NCBI GenBank assembly: GCA_025060105.1
Contig: JANXCS010000002.1
Location: forward strand, 62,001 to 126,000
Length of the DNA stretch: 64,000 nucleotides
Reading direction: 5' to 3'
Source: Pseudothermotoga sp.
GTDB lineage: Bacteria > Thermotogota > Thermotogae > Thermotogales > DSM-5069
Positions 30,987-57,360 of this stretch are shown here, in pieces. Position 1 is the stretch's first letter; each line of letters starts with the position of its first letter. The translations under genes and the position numbers were made by a program. A model generated the notes under the pieces. The model was not told where the DNA came from. It did no database searches and saw only the letters and a list, made by a program, of their open reading frames with translations.

Positions 30987-31017
30987 GGGGGAAGGCCTCT
31001 CCCCAGCAGGGAGAGGC
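30987..31017 (-). terminator. Terminator-like hairpin after rplQ
   Basis: Immediately after the rplQ stop, a perfect 9-bp stem (GCCTCTCCC / GGGAGAGGC, loop TGCTG) spans 31017-30995 read leftward. It is followed by the pyrimidine run CTTCCCC rather than a pure T-tract. It probably ends, fully or partly, the long ribosomal-protein transcript. The rho -35 hexamer starts directly beyond it. Confidence 0.6.
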
Positions 31018-52889: not shown

Positions 52890-54566
52890 TCATATTTTTG
52901 ACAAAAACAGTTTAGCCAGCTTCTCGCTGCCAAGAATGTTCGTAAGTTCTTCTATAGGAGCATTTCTGATCTCCTCAATGCTTGTGAACCTTTTTAAAAG
53001 TTTCTTCCTTCTCTTTGGACCTATCATTGGTACGGTCTCCATGATCGACTCTAACAACTGTCGATCCCGTAATTTCCTATGAAAACTGTTAGCAAACCTG
53101 TGGGCTTCATCCCTAATGGACACGAGTAACCTCAGCACAGGATGATCCTTAGGCAAGCTCAGTTCGCCATCGATGGTGCAAACAATTTCCCTACCTTTAG
53201 ACAAACCAACAACGCCACAGTTTTTACCAAGTTCACTCAAAGCTCTCACAACTGCTTGAACTTGAGTGACTCCTCCATCAACAAAGATCAGATCGGGGAT
53301 GGGATGTTTTGAGTACCTTCGCACCAACACATTTTTTATAGCTGCAAAATCGTTGTTTGCAATGTCAGTCAGTCTGTAATGTCTGTATGCCGATTTGAGT
53401 GGAAAGCCATCTTTAAAAACAACAACCGATGCCACCGTGAGTTGACCATGAAGGTGCGCAACATCGAATCCTTCGATGATACTTGGTGATTTTTCAAGCC
53501 CAACTAAATCCTTAAGTTGATTCATGGCGTCAAGGTTGAGTTCGAATCTTTGTGAATTGATATTTGCATTCTCAATAGCTTTTCGAAGCAGCTCAGTTTC
53601 TACATCATCCATGGGAGGGCGAACCTGTGTACCCAAATCTAGTTTTATGCTCCTTTTCACCAACACTAGTTCTGGAAGTTCGTTCTGATTCACAATATAA
53701 TAGTGAAACAGGAAATCTTCAAGTTTAGAAGAATCGAGCGTATAGTTCAGTTTTGCAACGATGTTTCCTCTCCTAACACGAAGTACGACGTAACACTTTC
53801 CACTGTTTCCAATGACATCCAAATTTCGCCAAGGTTCCAGTACCACTCCTTGACTTTCTAAAAATTGTTGCAAATTCAAAAGAAGGTCTCTGTATTTTGC
53901 GGCGTTTTCGAAGTCAAGAACAGCTGCATGCTTTTTCATCTTCTCCTTGAGTAAATTGAACGTTTCTTCCATCTCACCTTTCAAAAATCTTCTCAAAGGT
54001 TCAATAGCCAATTGAACATATGTGTTGGCATCAATTTGATTTGAACAAGGAGCTAAGCATCTATGTAAATGATGCTCAACACATGGCTTTTTCACCCTCT
54101 TGAGATCTCGTGCGCAAGTTCGAAATTGGTAAACTTGTTGTAAATAGTCTAGTAAATTCCTCAAGGTTGTGATATTCGTGTAGGGACCATAATATTCTCC
54201 ATCAAGACTTCTTTTTCTTACGATTCTCACCAACGGAAATTCTTCTTTCGTGATTTCAATGTAAGGGTAGTATTCACTCTCCTTGAGCATGATGTTATAT
54301 TTAGGCTTGTGCTGGTATATCAAACTTGCCTCCAACAATAAAGCTTCTTTTTCGCTAAAAACTATGACATAGTCTAAATCGGCAGCTTCTTCGATCAAAG
54401 ATGCTATCTTGGGATTCCTTGTGTGAGTAGATTTGCTGAAATAACTCATTAACCTGCGGTACAAATTCTTCGCCTTGCCTATGTAGAGATATTGATGCTC
54501 TTTTCCATAAAAAATGTACACACCAGGCTTTTTTGGAGCGAGTTCTGCCTTTTTTCGGAGTTCCAC
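52890..54566 (-). CDS. uvrC: UvrABC excinuclease subunit C
   Basis: UvrC makes both incisions in nucleotide excision repair. The 558 residues contain the GIY-YIG nuclease (GVYIFYGKEHQYLYIGKAKN, about 15-34), the UVR motif (DFENAAKYRDLLLN), the RNase-H-like nuclease (EGFDVAHLHG, LIFVDGGVTQ and EAHRFANSFHRK) and a helix-hairpin-helix tail (IGPKRRKKLLKRF). The start is GTG behind GGAGG. The gene is divergent from the feo operon. Confidence 0.96.
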   Translation of the reverse strand: MELRKKAELAPKKPGVYIFYGKEHQYLYIGKAKNLYRRLMSYFSKSTHTRNPKIASLIEEAADLDYVIVFSEKEALLLEASLIYQHKPKYNIMLKESEYYPYIEITKEEFPLVRIVRKRSLDGEYYGPYTNITTLRNLLDYLQQVYQFRTCARDLKRVKKPCVEHHLHRCLAPCSNQIDANTYVQLAIEPLRRFLKGEMEETFNLLKEKMKKHAAVLDFENAAKYRDLLLNLQQFLESQGVVLEPWRNLDVIGNSGKCYVVLRVRRGNIVAKLNYTLDSSKLEDFLFHYYIVNQNELPELVLVKRSIKLDLGTQVRPPMDDVETELLRKAIENANINSQRFELNLDAMNQLKDLVGLEKSPSIIEGFDVAHLHGQLTVASVVVFKDGFPLKSAYRHYRLTDIANNDFAAIKNVLVRRYSKHPIPDLIFVDGGVTQVQAVVRALSELGKNCGVVGLSKGREIVCTIDGELSLPKDHPVLRLLVSIRDEAHRFANSFHRKLRDRQLLESIMETVPMIGPKRRKKLLKRFTSIEEIRNAPIEELTNILGSEKLAKLFLSKI

Positions 54567-54606
54567 ATCTCATCCTCCGTCTTTTTATTTTACCTTAAGC
54601 GGTTGC

Positions 54607-54636
54607 TTGACTGAATCAGGAAGGGCGTGGTATTAT
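54607..54636 (+). promoter_or_regulatory. feo operon promoter
   Basis: TTGACT (54607-54612), an 18-base spacer and TATTAT (54631-54636) predict a start near 54643, inside the adjoining palindrome and about 32 bases before the feoA ATG. Confidence 0.7.
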
Positions 54637-54637
54637 C

Positions 54638-54660
54638 TTATTGAGAATAAATCTCAATAA
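54638..54660 (+). promoter_or_regulatory. Perfect inverted repeat: probable metal-regulator operator
   Basis: A perfect 9-bp inverted repeat, TTATTGAGA - ATAAA - TCTCAATAA, begins one base after the -10 hexamer and covers the expected transcription start. Its position fits a repressor site, most likely for an iron-responsive Fur- or DtxR-family protein, because feoAB follows. It does not closely match the classic GATAAT-based Fur box, so the regulator remains open. Confidence 0.72.
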
Positions 54661-54674
54661 AAAGGGGGACTGGT

Positions 54675-55112
54675 ATGTCTTTATCAGAAGTACCCGTTGG
54701 ACTGGAAGCGAAGATACTCTCTGTCCCAGAAGATGTCAAAGGGAACAAGTTGTTGTCCATTGGTTTTGTACCTGGAAACAAAGTGAAGGTCGTCGGTTGT
54801 GCACCTCTGGGAGATCCCCGTGTTTACATGATCATGGGGAAACTGATCACTCTGAGGAACGATGAAGCAAAGCAGATCTTGGTTTCATTGGAGAATGATG
54901 TGGAATCTTTGATGAACGCTAGAGAGGGAACATGGAGAGTTGTGTCTTTGATCGGAGGACGTCGACTTCGAGAGAAGCTTGAATCTATGGGTATTTTCGT
55001 GGGAAGTATAGTGAAAGTTATATCCAATGGGATCGTGGAAACTGAAAAGGGAGTTTTTAAAATAGGCATCAACATGGCTAAACTTATCCTCGTCAGGAGG
55101 GATAATGTTTGA
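54675..55112 (+). CDS. feoA: FeoA-type protein with two tandem FeoA domains
   Basis: FeoA is a small SH3-like cytoplasmic partner of the FeoB iron transporter. The 145-residue product is twice the usual ~75. Two FeoA-like domains are visible, about 1-72 (LSEVPVGLEAKILSVPEDVK, with LLSIGFVPGNKVKVV) and about 82-142 (TWRVVSLIGGRRLREKLESM, with GIFVGSIVKVI). The ATG follows AAGGGGG. The feoB start overlaps its stop (TTGA). Confidence 0.9.
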   Translation: MSLSEVPVGLEAKILSVPEDVKGNKLLSIGFVPGNKVKVVGCAPLGDPRVYMIMGKLITLRNDEAKQILVSLENDVESLMNAREGTWRVVSLIGGRRLREKLESMGIFVGSIVKVISNGIVETEKGVFKIGINMAKLILVRRDNV

Positions 55113-57040
55113 CGATTCGCGTCGCACTCTGTGGAAATCCTAATGTTGGTAAAACAAGTTTGTTCAACGCTTTGACTGGTATGAGACAGTATGTCGCAAA
55201 TTGGCCAGGTGTGACAGTCGAGGTAAAAGAGGGTGTGAGAAGCTGGAAAGATCATCACCTGATCATCACGGATCTTCCAGGAATGTATGGCATGCTCGCC
55301 ACATCGATGGATGAAAAGATAGCCCGAGATTTTTTACTTTACAATAATCCTGATGTGGTTGTTGTCGTCGCCGATGCGCTATCCCTAGAACAAGGATTGT
55401 ATTTGTTACTGGAAGTTTTAGAACTTGAAACTAAAGCGATTTTGGTCATTAATGCCATAGACGAAGCTAAGAAAAAAGGGTTGATCGTGGATAAAAGGGA
55501 ACTTTCGAAACACCTCAAAGTACCTGTTGTTCTCACCAGTGCGATCACAGGAGAAGGTGTGGAAGAACTACTTGACACAATAATCTCGACCGCTTCGAGT
55601 ACGCAGACAAAAGTAATCTTCAACTTCAGTGACGAAGTTGAGAGAGCAATATTTCAAATGCAAAGGTTCATTGAAGATTTTTCCAGAATCTCAACTTCAA
55701 GATGGTTCGCAATAAAGTATCTAGAAGGAGATCCAGAGATTGTTGAGAAATTCTCTCAGCGAACTTCAAATTTGCCTATTAAAGCAGGTAGTTTGAAAAG
55801 TGAGATTGCGCGTGAGAGATACGATCACATACAATTGATCATTAAAGAATCGATCGCATCGGCTTCAAAAGAGCTATCTTTGAGTGAGGCAATAGACCAT
55901 GTTTTAACTCACAAATTCATTGGCATCCCTGTCTTTCTTGCTCTCATGTACTTAGCACTCAACTTCGCTTTTGAAACGGTTCAACCATTGAGTGATTTAC
56001 TCGAATCGCTTTTCAGCCACGTTGTCAATTCCATCAGGACAAACCTTGGAGAAAATCTCATCAGTTCGATGCTCGCTGACGGAGTTGTCACTGGAGTAGG
56101 AGCTGTTTTGACTTTTGTTCCGAACATATTCGCTCTTTTTCTTCTGCTCGGTATCATGGAAGACTCAGGTTACCTACCTAGAGCTGCTTTCGTTATGGAC
56201 AGGATCATGTACACTTTGAAACTTTCCGGTAGATCCTTCATGTCCTTTTTGCTCGGTTTTGGATGTTCCGTGCCCGCTGTACTCTCGACGAGAGGTGTAT
56301 CTGACCCTAGAGAAAGGATCATATCGGTACTCTCAGTTCCGTTCGTAAGCTGTAGTGCGCGATTACCTGTATATTTGTTGATCGCCTCGATCTTTTTTCC
56401 TGAGAACCGCGGTTTTGTAGTCTTCTCAGTTTATTTGTTCAGCATGATTGCGGCGATGGTCAGTTCTCTGATACTTAACAGGTTGATCTTCAAAGGTCAG
56501 CGTGGTTTTTTCATCCTCGAGCTTCCAAGGTACAGATTACCAACGATTAAGAATTTGGCCATCTATACATGGCTGAGAGGTAAACATTTCTTAGTAAAAG
56601 CTGGTACCATCATTTTCGTAGCCTCACTGGTTCTCTGGGCGTTGATGTACTTTCCAAACCCGAATGATGTTTCGCAGTCGTTTGCAGCTCAAATAGGTAG
56701 GTCCATGTCTCTCATCCTGAAACCATTGAATTTCGACTGGCGTGCTTCAACTGCGTTATTTTTCGGCATAACGGCAAAAGAGATCATAGTATCAACTTTC
56801 GGCATGCTGTTTAAAACGCAGGAAGAAACGCTAGCCAAGCATCTATCTCAACTTTTCGATCCTCTCACAGCGTACAGTTTCATCATATTCGTCATGGCTT
56901 ATATTCCATGTTTAGCTACTCTCGCTTCGATCCGTAGCGAGATAGGTACAAAATACGTTTTGATCACTATATTTTATAGTTTTTTCTTCGCTTATGCTGC
57001 AGCTCTCCTCGTTAAGCTCATCGGAGGTGTTCTCTTGTGA
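55109..57040 (+). CDS. feoB: Ferrous iron transport protein B
   Basis: FeoB is the Fe(II) permease of the inner membrane, with an N-terminal GTPase. The 643 residues have the P-loop ALCGNPNVGKTSLFNALTG (6-24), the switch region NWPGVTVEVKEG, DLPGMYG and a helical spacer. The membrane part then shows two Gate regions (GFGCSVPAVLSTRG and SVPFVSCSARLPVYLLIASIF) and about eight to nine helices. Start TTG lies seven bases after GGAGGG. Confidence 0.96.
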   Translation: MTIRVALCGNPNVGKTSLFNALTGMRQYVANWPGVTVEVKEGVRSWKDHHLIITDLPGMYGMLATSMDEKIARDFLLYNNPDVVVVVADALSLEQGLYLLLEVLELETKAILVINAIDEAKKKGLIVDKRELSKHLKVPVVLTSAITGEGVEELLDTIISTASSTQTKVIFNFSDEVERAIFQMQRFIEDFSRISTSRWFAIKYLEGDPEIVEKFSQRTSNLPIKAGSLKSEIARERYDHIQLIIKESIASASKELSLSEAIDHVLTHKFIGIPVFLALMYLALNFAFETVQPLSDLLESLFSHVVNSIRTNLGENLISSMLADGVVTGVGAVLTFVPNIFALFLLLGIMEDSGYLPRAAFVMDRIMYTLKLSGRSFMSFLLGFGCSVPAVLSTRGVSDPRERIISVLSVPFVSCSARLPVYLLIASIFFPENRGFVVFSVYLFSMIAAMVSSLILNRLIFKGQRGFFILELPRYRLPTIKNLAIYTWLRGKHFLVKAGTIIFVASLVLWALMYFPNPNDVSQSFAAQIGRSMSLILKPLNFDWRASTALFFGITAKEIIVSTFGMLFKTQEETLAKHLSQLFDPLTAYSFIIFVMAYIPCLATLASIRSEIGTKYVLITIFYSFFFAYAAALLVKLIGGVLL

Positions 57041-57360
57041 GATTTCTACTTTTACTGGAGTGGATAGCTTCACTTTTGTTTTTCTTTTCGTCTGTCAAGC
57101 AAGAAACACTGCTCAGTATTTGTGTTTTGATTTTTTCTTTCATCTATTTGCTTGGACTTTTGGAGTCGAAGAATGATCCACAACGAATTCGCGCACATAT
57201 TATGGTTGGAGGTTTGTTGTTCTTCATAACGGCAGTCCTGACTTTCTTGAACGATCTGTCCAAACTCAATTTGCAGTTCAACCTCCCAAGGAATCTTTTA
57301 ATTTTTCTCGGCTTAATTGGTTTGATCCAAGCTAATGTGGTGAGAAAGAGCTTCAAATGA
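57037..57360 (+). CDS. Unrecognised small membrane protein of the feo operon
   Basis: The 107-residue product has three to four hydrophobic segments and ends in a basic tail (NVVRKSFK). It is not a FeoC-type winged helix, and I do not recognise it. GTG overlaps the feoB stop (GTGA), so it is translationally coupled to FeoB and may assist it. Its last eight bases overlap the convergent PiT permease gene. Confidence 0.75.
   Translation: MRFLLLLEWIASLLFFFSSVKQETLLSICVLIFSFIYLLGLLESKNDPQRIRAHIMVGGLLFFITAVLTFLNDLSKLNLQFNLPRNLLIFLGLIGLIQANVVRKSFK

Follow-up and report, generated by a model that had tools for sequence, protein, structure and literature searches.

A Fur-type box over the feoA-feoB promoter of Pseudothermotoga and its conservation across the class Thermotogae

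The feo locus and the palindrome over its promoter

The window, that is, the whole stretch of 64,000 nucleotides analysed here, carries an iron-uptake locus whose features are collected in Table 1. The 108-bp gap between feoA and the divergent uvrC contains the palindrome TTATTGAGA-ATAAA-TCTCAATAA, which on direct reading of the sequence is exactly the perfect 9-5-9 repeat that an earlier note on this DNA had described. At the other end of the locus, the 107-aa ORF that overlaps feoB has no family match in NCBIfam or Pfam; it likely shares the feo operon and is possibly its third gene.

Table 1. Features of the feo locus in the window, with the evidence for each
Feature	Position	Strand	Evidence
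uvrC, 558 aa, divergent neighbour	52890..54566	-	Pfam UvrC_RNaseH_dom, 6e-41
feo promoter: -35 TTGACT, 18-bp spacer, TG-extended -10 TATTAT	54607..54636	+	consensus scan
putative Fur-type operator, 9-5-9 palindrome	54638..54660	.	sequence; conserved at 45/56 primary feo loci
core 7-1-7 repeat TGAGAAT-A-AATCTCA inside the operator	54642-54656		sequence
predicted ribosome-binding site GGGGGA	54664..54669	+	read from sequence
feoA, 145 aa, tandem FeoA domains	54675..55112	+	Pfam PF04023, two stretches, 3e-23
feoB, 643 aa, Fe(II) transporter	55109..57040	+	TIGR00437, 3.6e-182; Pfam FeoB_N, Gate, FeoB_C
107-aa ORF, overlaps feoB 3' end by 4 bp	57037..57360	+	ORF list

The consensus scan of 54540-54720 returned the sigma-70-like promoter as its only promoter-like match. 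The palindrome starts 1 bp past the -10 hexamer and therefore should cover the start point of feo transcription, which is expected near 54643. The classical repressor position that the earlier note had assigned to it is supported by this arrangement.

With up to three mismatches, the pattern of the palindrome has a single match in the window, where 0.11 would be expected from 100 shuffles, and a single match in the whole 1.92-Mb genome. Perfect 9-5-9 palindromes of any spelling number three in the window, the mean of 30 Markov resamples being 0.33; the other two are a repeat within a coding gene, which we take to be that of EF-G, and a GC-rich stem at 30995. Three such repeats in one window, one of them in a coding gene, are what speaks for a chance palindrome at feo, and a bare 9-5-9 palindrome alone would be weak evidence. 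The feo palindrome is set above chance by its conservation at orthologous feo loci: in many genera the box is kept, at 45 of the 56 primary feo promoters in all, which refutes chance and leaves it a negligible probability.

Conservation across the class and kinship with known Fur boxes

A FeoB match was obtained in each of the 61 genomes searched; some are short matches to the GTPase domain only. Five genomes (G003, G011, G048, G053 and G054) lacked either a usable upstream stretch or a full FeoB and were left out of the 56 primary loci, while the second feo copies G009b, G035b and G046b were kept outside the 56 but inside a 59-row FeoB tree. The stretch examined was that upstream of feoA; in G045 and G057, which gave no FeoA match, that upstream of feoB was taken instead. 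A box was called at 13 or more of 16 matches to TTGAGAATnATTCTCAA, a threshold set after seeing the data; it is present upstream at the 45 primary loci and absent at all three second copies. When the upstream stretch of each locus was resampled 300 times under a first-order Markov model, every one of the 45 boxes reached p <=0.027, a level attained by none of the 11 other loci. The suggestion that the palindrome may define the iron-regulator motif of its group found support in this distribution.

Counting bases across the 45 boxes yields the class consensus TTATTGAGAATnATTCTCAATAA, in which G at -6, C at +6, A at -3 and T at +3 are invariant (45/45) and the arms extend to TTATTGAGAAT/ATTCTCAATAA. 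Pseudothermotoga sp. MAG RSWP20 carries TTATTGAGAATGAATCTCAATAA at feo. From these counts we read the 9-5-9 palindrome of the window as a mildly degraded version of a fully symmetrical 11-1-11 repeat. The core of that full repeat, TGAGAATnATTCTCA, is a 7-1-7 Fur-type box; in the right arm of the window copy, AATCTCA stands where the class consensus has ATTCTCA, A replacing T. The box centre lies 12 bp past the -10 hexamer in the source genome and 7 to 18 bp past the best -10 at 38 of the 45 loci. At the remaining seven, the script chose a -10 hexamer overlapping the box itself, and those promoter calls are regarded as failed.

The earlier note had also held that the palindrome differs from the textbook Fur box. 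The difference is not one of kind, for the site carries a near-consensus 7-1-7 Fur-type repeat. The window core matches the consensus of B. subtilis Fur at 11 of 14 positions, that of PerR at 9/14 and that of Zur at 8, while the class consensus reaches 12/14 for B. subtilis Fur. When longer boxes are taken, 12/19 positions of the E. coli box and 14/19 of the Vibrio box agree with the window site. This agreement falls inside the range of 50-80% identity reported in PMC7536154 for the Fur boxes of different bacteria. The 7-1-7 reading of the B. subtilis Fur box goes back to Baichoo and Helmann 2002, as cited in PMC11353095 and PMC6212828. That box and the present one are both 15-bp, AT-rich inverted repeats with one central base at iron-gene promoters; here, however, TGAGAAT replaces TGATAAT in both arms, and the arms of the class consensus are lengthened to 11 bp.

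The closest solved precedent is the Magnetospirillum MgFur-feoAB1 operator complex, in which, according to PMC4506495, one Fur dimer was crystallised on TTGCAAATcATTTGCAA, where Arg57 contacts a conserved G and Tyr56 contacts T bases (this work is reviewed in PMC11353095). The operator serves the same gene pair, follows the same TTG..AAT-n-ATT..CAA plan, takes a single dimer per repeat as would the present box, and by eye shares 12 of the 16 positions of the class consensus, the G in the same place included, but it has CA within the arm where the class box has AG. The native MgFur operator is less symmetrical than the crystallised one. The 19-bp E. coli Fur box, given as GATAATGATAATCATTATC in PMC11353095, is likewise a metal-repressor operator over a promoter; only the 12 positions mentioned above agree, however, and the window site is without the three-GATAAT array, so that two overlapping dimers are not predicted on it.

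Fur-family proteins and the lineages without the box

The source genome encodes two Fur-family proteins, FurA and FurB. FurA, a protein of 153 aa, is encoded at about 6280-6741 of contig C1, directly after a gene that we take to be nusA. It has a PF01475 FUR domain (2e-32), and its best match among solved structures is a ferric uptake regulation protein (7e-36). The features expected of a Fur protein are kept, namely the ATVYR recognition helix, HQHLICKSCG with its HxH, CPKC and the CxxC pairs. Among the ten families listed, NF051892 (TransRegFurBacil) scores best with 139.6 bits, under its curated cut-off of 220. By its sequence, FurA is thus assigned as a Fur-like, Bacillus-Fur-like paralog outside the equivalog NF051892. 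A tree of 92 Fur-family proteins, drawn from the fetched loci out of all PF01475 matches, falls into three groups, with the FurA group (50 rows) behind one branch (94/98).

The earlier note had proposed correlating the motif with Fur or DtxR/MntR regulators, and the box follows FurA, not the DtxR-family proteins. Of the 48 primary loci whose genome has FurA, 44 carry it, as does one of the eight whose genome has none; counted as FurA-less are genomes in which all listed matches are in the tree (G043, G060) or which have none (the other six). A Fisher test of this association gives p 1e-5 but ignores the relatedness of the genomes. Since the genomes are related, this value is to be read as two independent co-losses, and it is these, not 56 independent points, that carry the inference. 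The exceptions are G050, G045, G057 and G051, in which FurA is present and the box absent, and G043 alone, which has the box without FurA and whose genome is 81% complete in 240 contigs.

On the FeoB tree, the loci without the box group into exactly three clades. The first is a Thermotogales lineage of family f2 (genera g7, g12 and g13; loci L028, L026, L033, L022, L023 and L029), in which no PF01475 match was found in G013, G029, G031, G033, G035 or G037 and the box is absent in 6/6. This lineage still has feo and DtxR-family proteins, and by eye its feo upstream regions offer no convincing replacement motif. A perfect 16/16 box in G033 (L126) was considered as counter-evidence at feo and rejected, as it falls inside a 252-aa ORF. 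The second clade, family f9, has orthologous FeoB; G060 is without FurA, and the FurA of G050 is degenerate, with VKR for VYR, by which the DNA-contact Tyr is gone, and no HxH. The third comprises a divergent FeoB type, that is, the f4 genomes and the second feo copies; two of three f4 FurA proteins (G045, G057) are without HxH.

The FurA orthologs without HxH (L158, L162 and L163, of G050, G045 and G057) are possibly metal-independent or decaying, to judge from their residues. A feo operon of a second, divergent type that lacks the box occurs at L065, L068, L071 and contig C31 of G035, and on the last a DtxR-like gene adjoins it.

That gene in G035, together with a DtxR-family gene in the source genome itself (C10:36140, 1.4e-14), brings up a DtxR/MntR-family repressor as the protein on the operator. 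The distribution goes the other way: all six Fur-less, box-less genomes still have a DtxR-family match over the cut-off, G056 has the box without one over the cut-off, and the plan of the box is of the Fur type. We consider such a repressor very unlikely.

Binding by a different member of the Fur family, a PerR-like FurB or Zur-like FurC in place of FurA, is likewise improbable. The boxes of Fur, PerR and Zur resemble one another, the window site shares 9/14 positions with the PerR box, and FurB (contig C8:77683) has as its best solved match the peroxide operon regulator 2fe3 (9.4e-20). The Fur consensus nevertheless fits the site better than PerR or Zur, and FurB reads IYN, with Asn where the DNA-contact Arg is expected. 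Furthermore, G060, with proteins of the B and C clades and no FurA, and G050, with B and C and the degenerate FurA, are both without the box.

The palindrome might also act as RNA, as a 5'-terminal hairpin of the feo transcript that sets its stability or translation; for the 23-mer the folding energy is -7.4 kcal/mol (z -5.6). Any perfect palindrome folds, however, and with the expected start inside the palindrome a 4-bp stem is left. The identity of the bases is conserved, the distance to the start codon varies widely, and the box is lost along with FurA. No credible Rfam match was obtained for the palindrome, and we give the hairpin very little credence.

We conclude that the palindrome is very probably a Fur box, the Fe(II)-FurA operator of feoA-feoB, at which repression would be exerted by covering the transcription start. 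This reading is based on the class-wide conservation, the co-loss with FurA, the Fur-like character of FurA, the position over the start and the MgFur precedent. By sequence position, the putative operator lies at the promoter of an iron-uptake gene, 1 bp past the -10, and its proposed cognate Fur tracks the box through two lineage-level co-losses. Under iron sufficiency, metal-loaded FurA would bind the box, probably as a single dimer, and would lie over the start point, directly after the -10, and block RNA polymerase; as iron falls, FurA would be released and feo transcribed. Counting against the FurA reading are the four FurA loci without the box, G043, the shortfall against NF051892 and the absence of a second strong metal-gene box from the source genome.

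Further boxes and meaning for iron control in the class

In the source genome, eight places lie within one mismatch of TTGARAWTNADTYTCAA, with feo as the sole exact one; six of the others are inside long ORFs and one sits 32 nt upstream of an HD-domain gene. Reversed-pattern controls of the genome scans were not used as a null because their dinucleotide make-up differs. Metal genes of this genome showed no further strong box nearby at up to one mismatch to TTGARAWTNADTYTCAA or up to three to the palindrome, so the regulon of the feo box looks very small, as far as such scans can indicate. The recurrence near other metal genes whose lack, according to the earlier note, would refute its reading is accordingly missing within the source genome at the stringency used; recurrence is seen instead across orthologous feo operons, plus at two sites in Thermotoga.

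These two further conserved intergenic Fur-type boxes are found in genus g5, inferred to be Thermotoga. The first lies just upstream of a gene for an AhpC/TSA (peroxiredoxin)-nitroreductase fusion, itself after an anaerobic ribonucleotide reductase gene (L228, L229, L230 and L231, each at 1501-1517); it is exact in five of the six g5 genomes searched, and the context was seen in four. The second is upstream of a ribosome-binding site and a 24-codon ORF (e.g. MFVLIPVDVLIAIHSEKIGQKRNR) by a radical SAM gene, presumably YgiQ-like (L141:1970-2020 on the minus strand, L139:1984-2090, and matching stretches of L238, L239, L240, L241 and L259). The ORF is found at E < 1e-3 in 7 of the 61 genomes, all of genus g5, and the box precedes it in 7/7. 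A second ORF of 28 codons occurs in two genomes, a terminator-like stem is visible by eye nearby, and no Rfam match was obtained for the region in the three loci scanned. The locus is put forward as a candidate for a Fur-controlled microprotein or small RNA.

The literature searches showed no paper that by title or abstract describes the box for Thermotogales, and one for the literal consensus returned no paper. The RegPrecise Thermotogales collection comprises 33 TF regulogs according to PMC3840689, and the box may already be listed there. Term searches within two Thermotoga papers gave no 'iron' or 'feo' in PMC3636130, where the matches displayed for 'fur' are 'furthermore' and the like, and no 'Fur' or 'iron' in PMC3750489.

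The box is very probably an ordinary Fur-type switch, with a spelling common to a class of heat-loving bacteria and lost where the repressor is lost. A wider proposal is offered tentatively: the class Thermotogae may have inherited a Fur system that works through an extended single-dimer operator of its own (TTATTGAGAATnATTCTCAATAA) and whose regulon is reduced to little more than feo. One Thermotogales lineage would have lost this system wholesale, together with all its Fur-family proteins, and in f9 it would have decayed independently, while the Thermotoga Fur might also control a hitherto unremarked 24-residue microprotein of the iron response. The analysis corrects the idea that a non-Fur regulator may be needed at feo. 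For iron uptake in a deep-branching class of thermophiles it supplies an operator that can be tested and a regulator with a name, and the lineage in which Fur is lost altogether but feo is kept represents a natural experiment.
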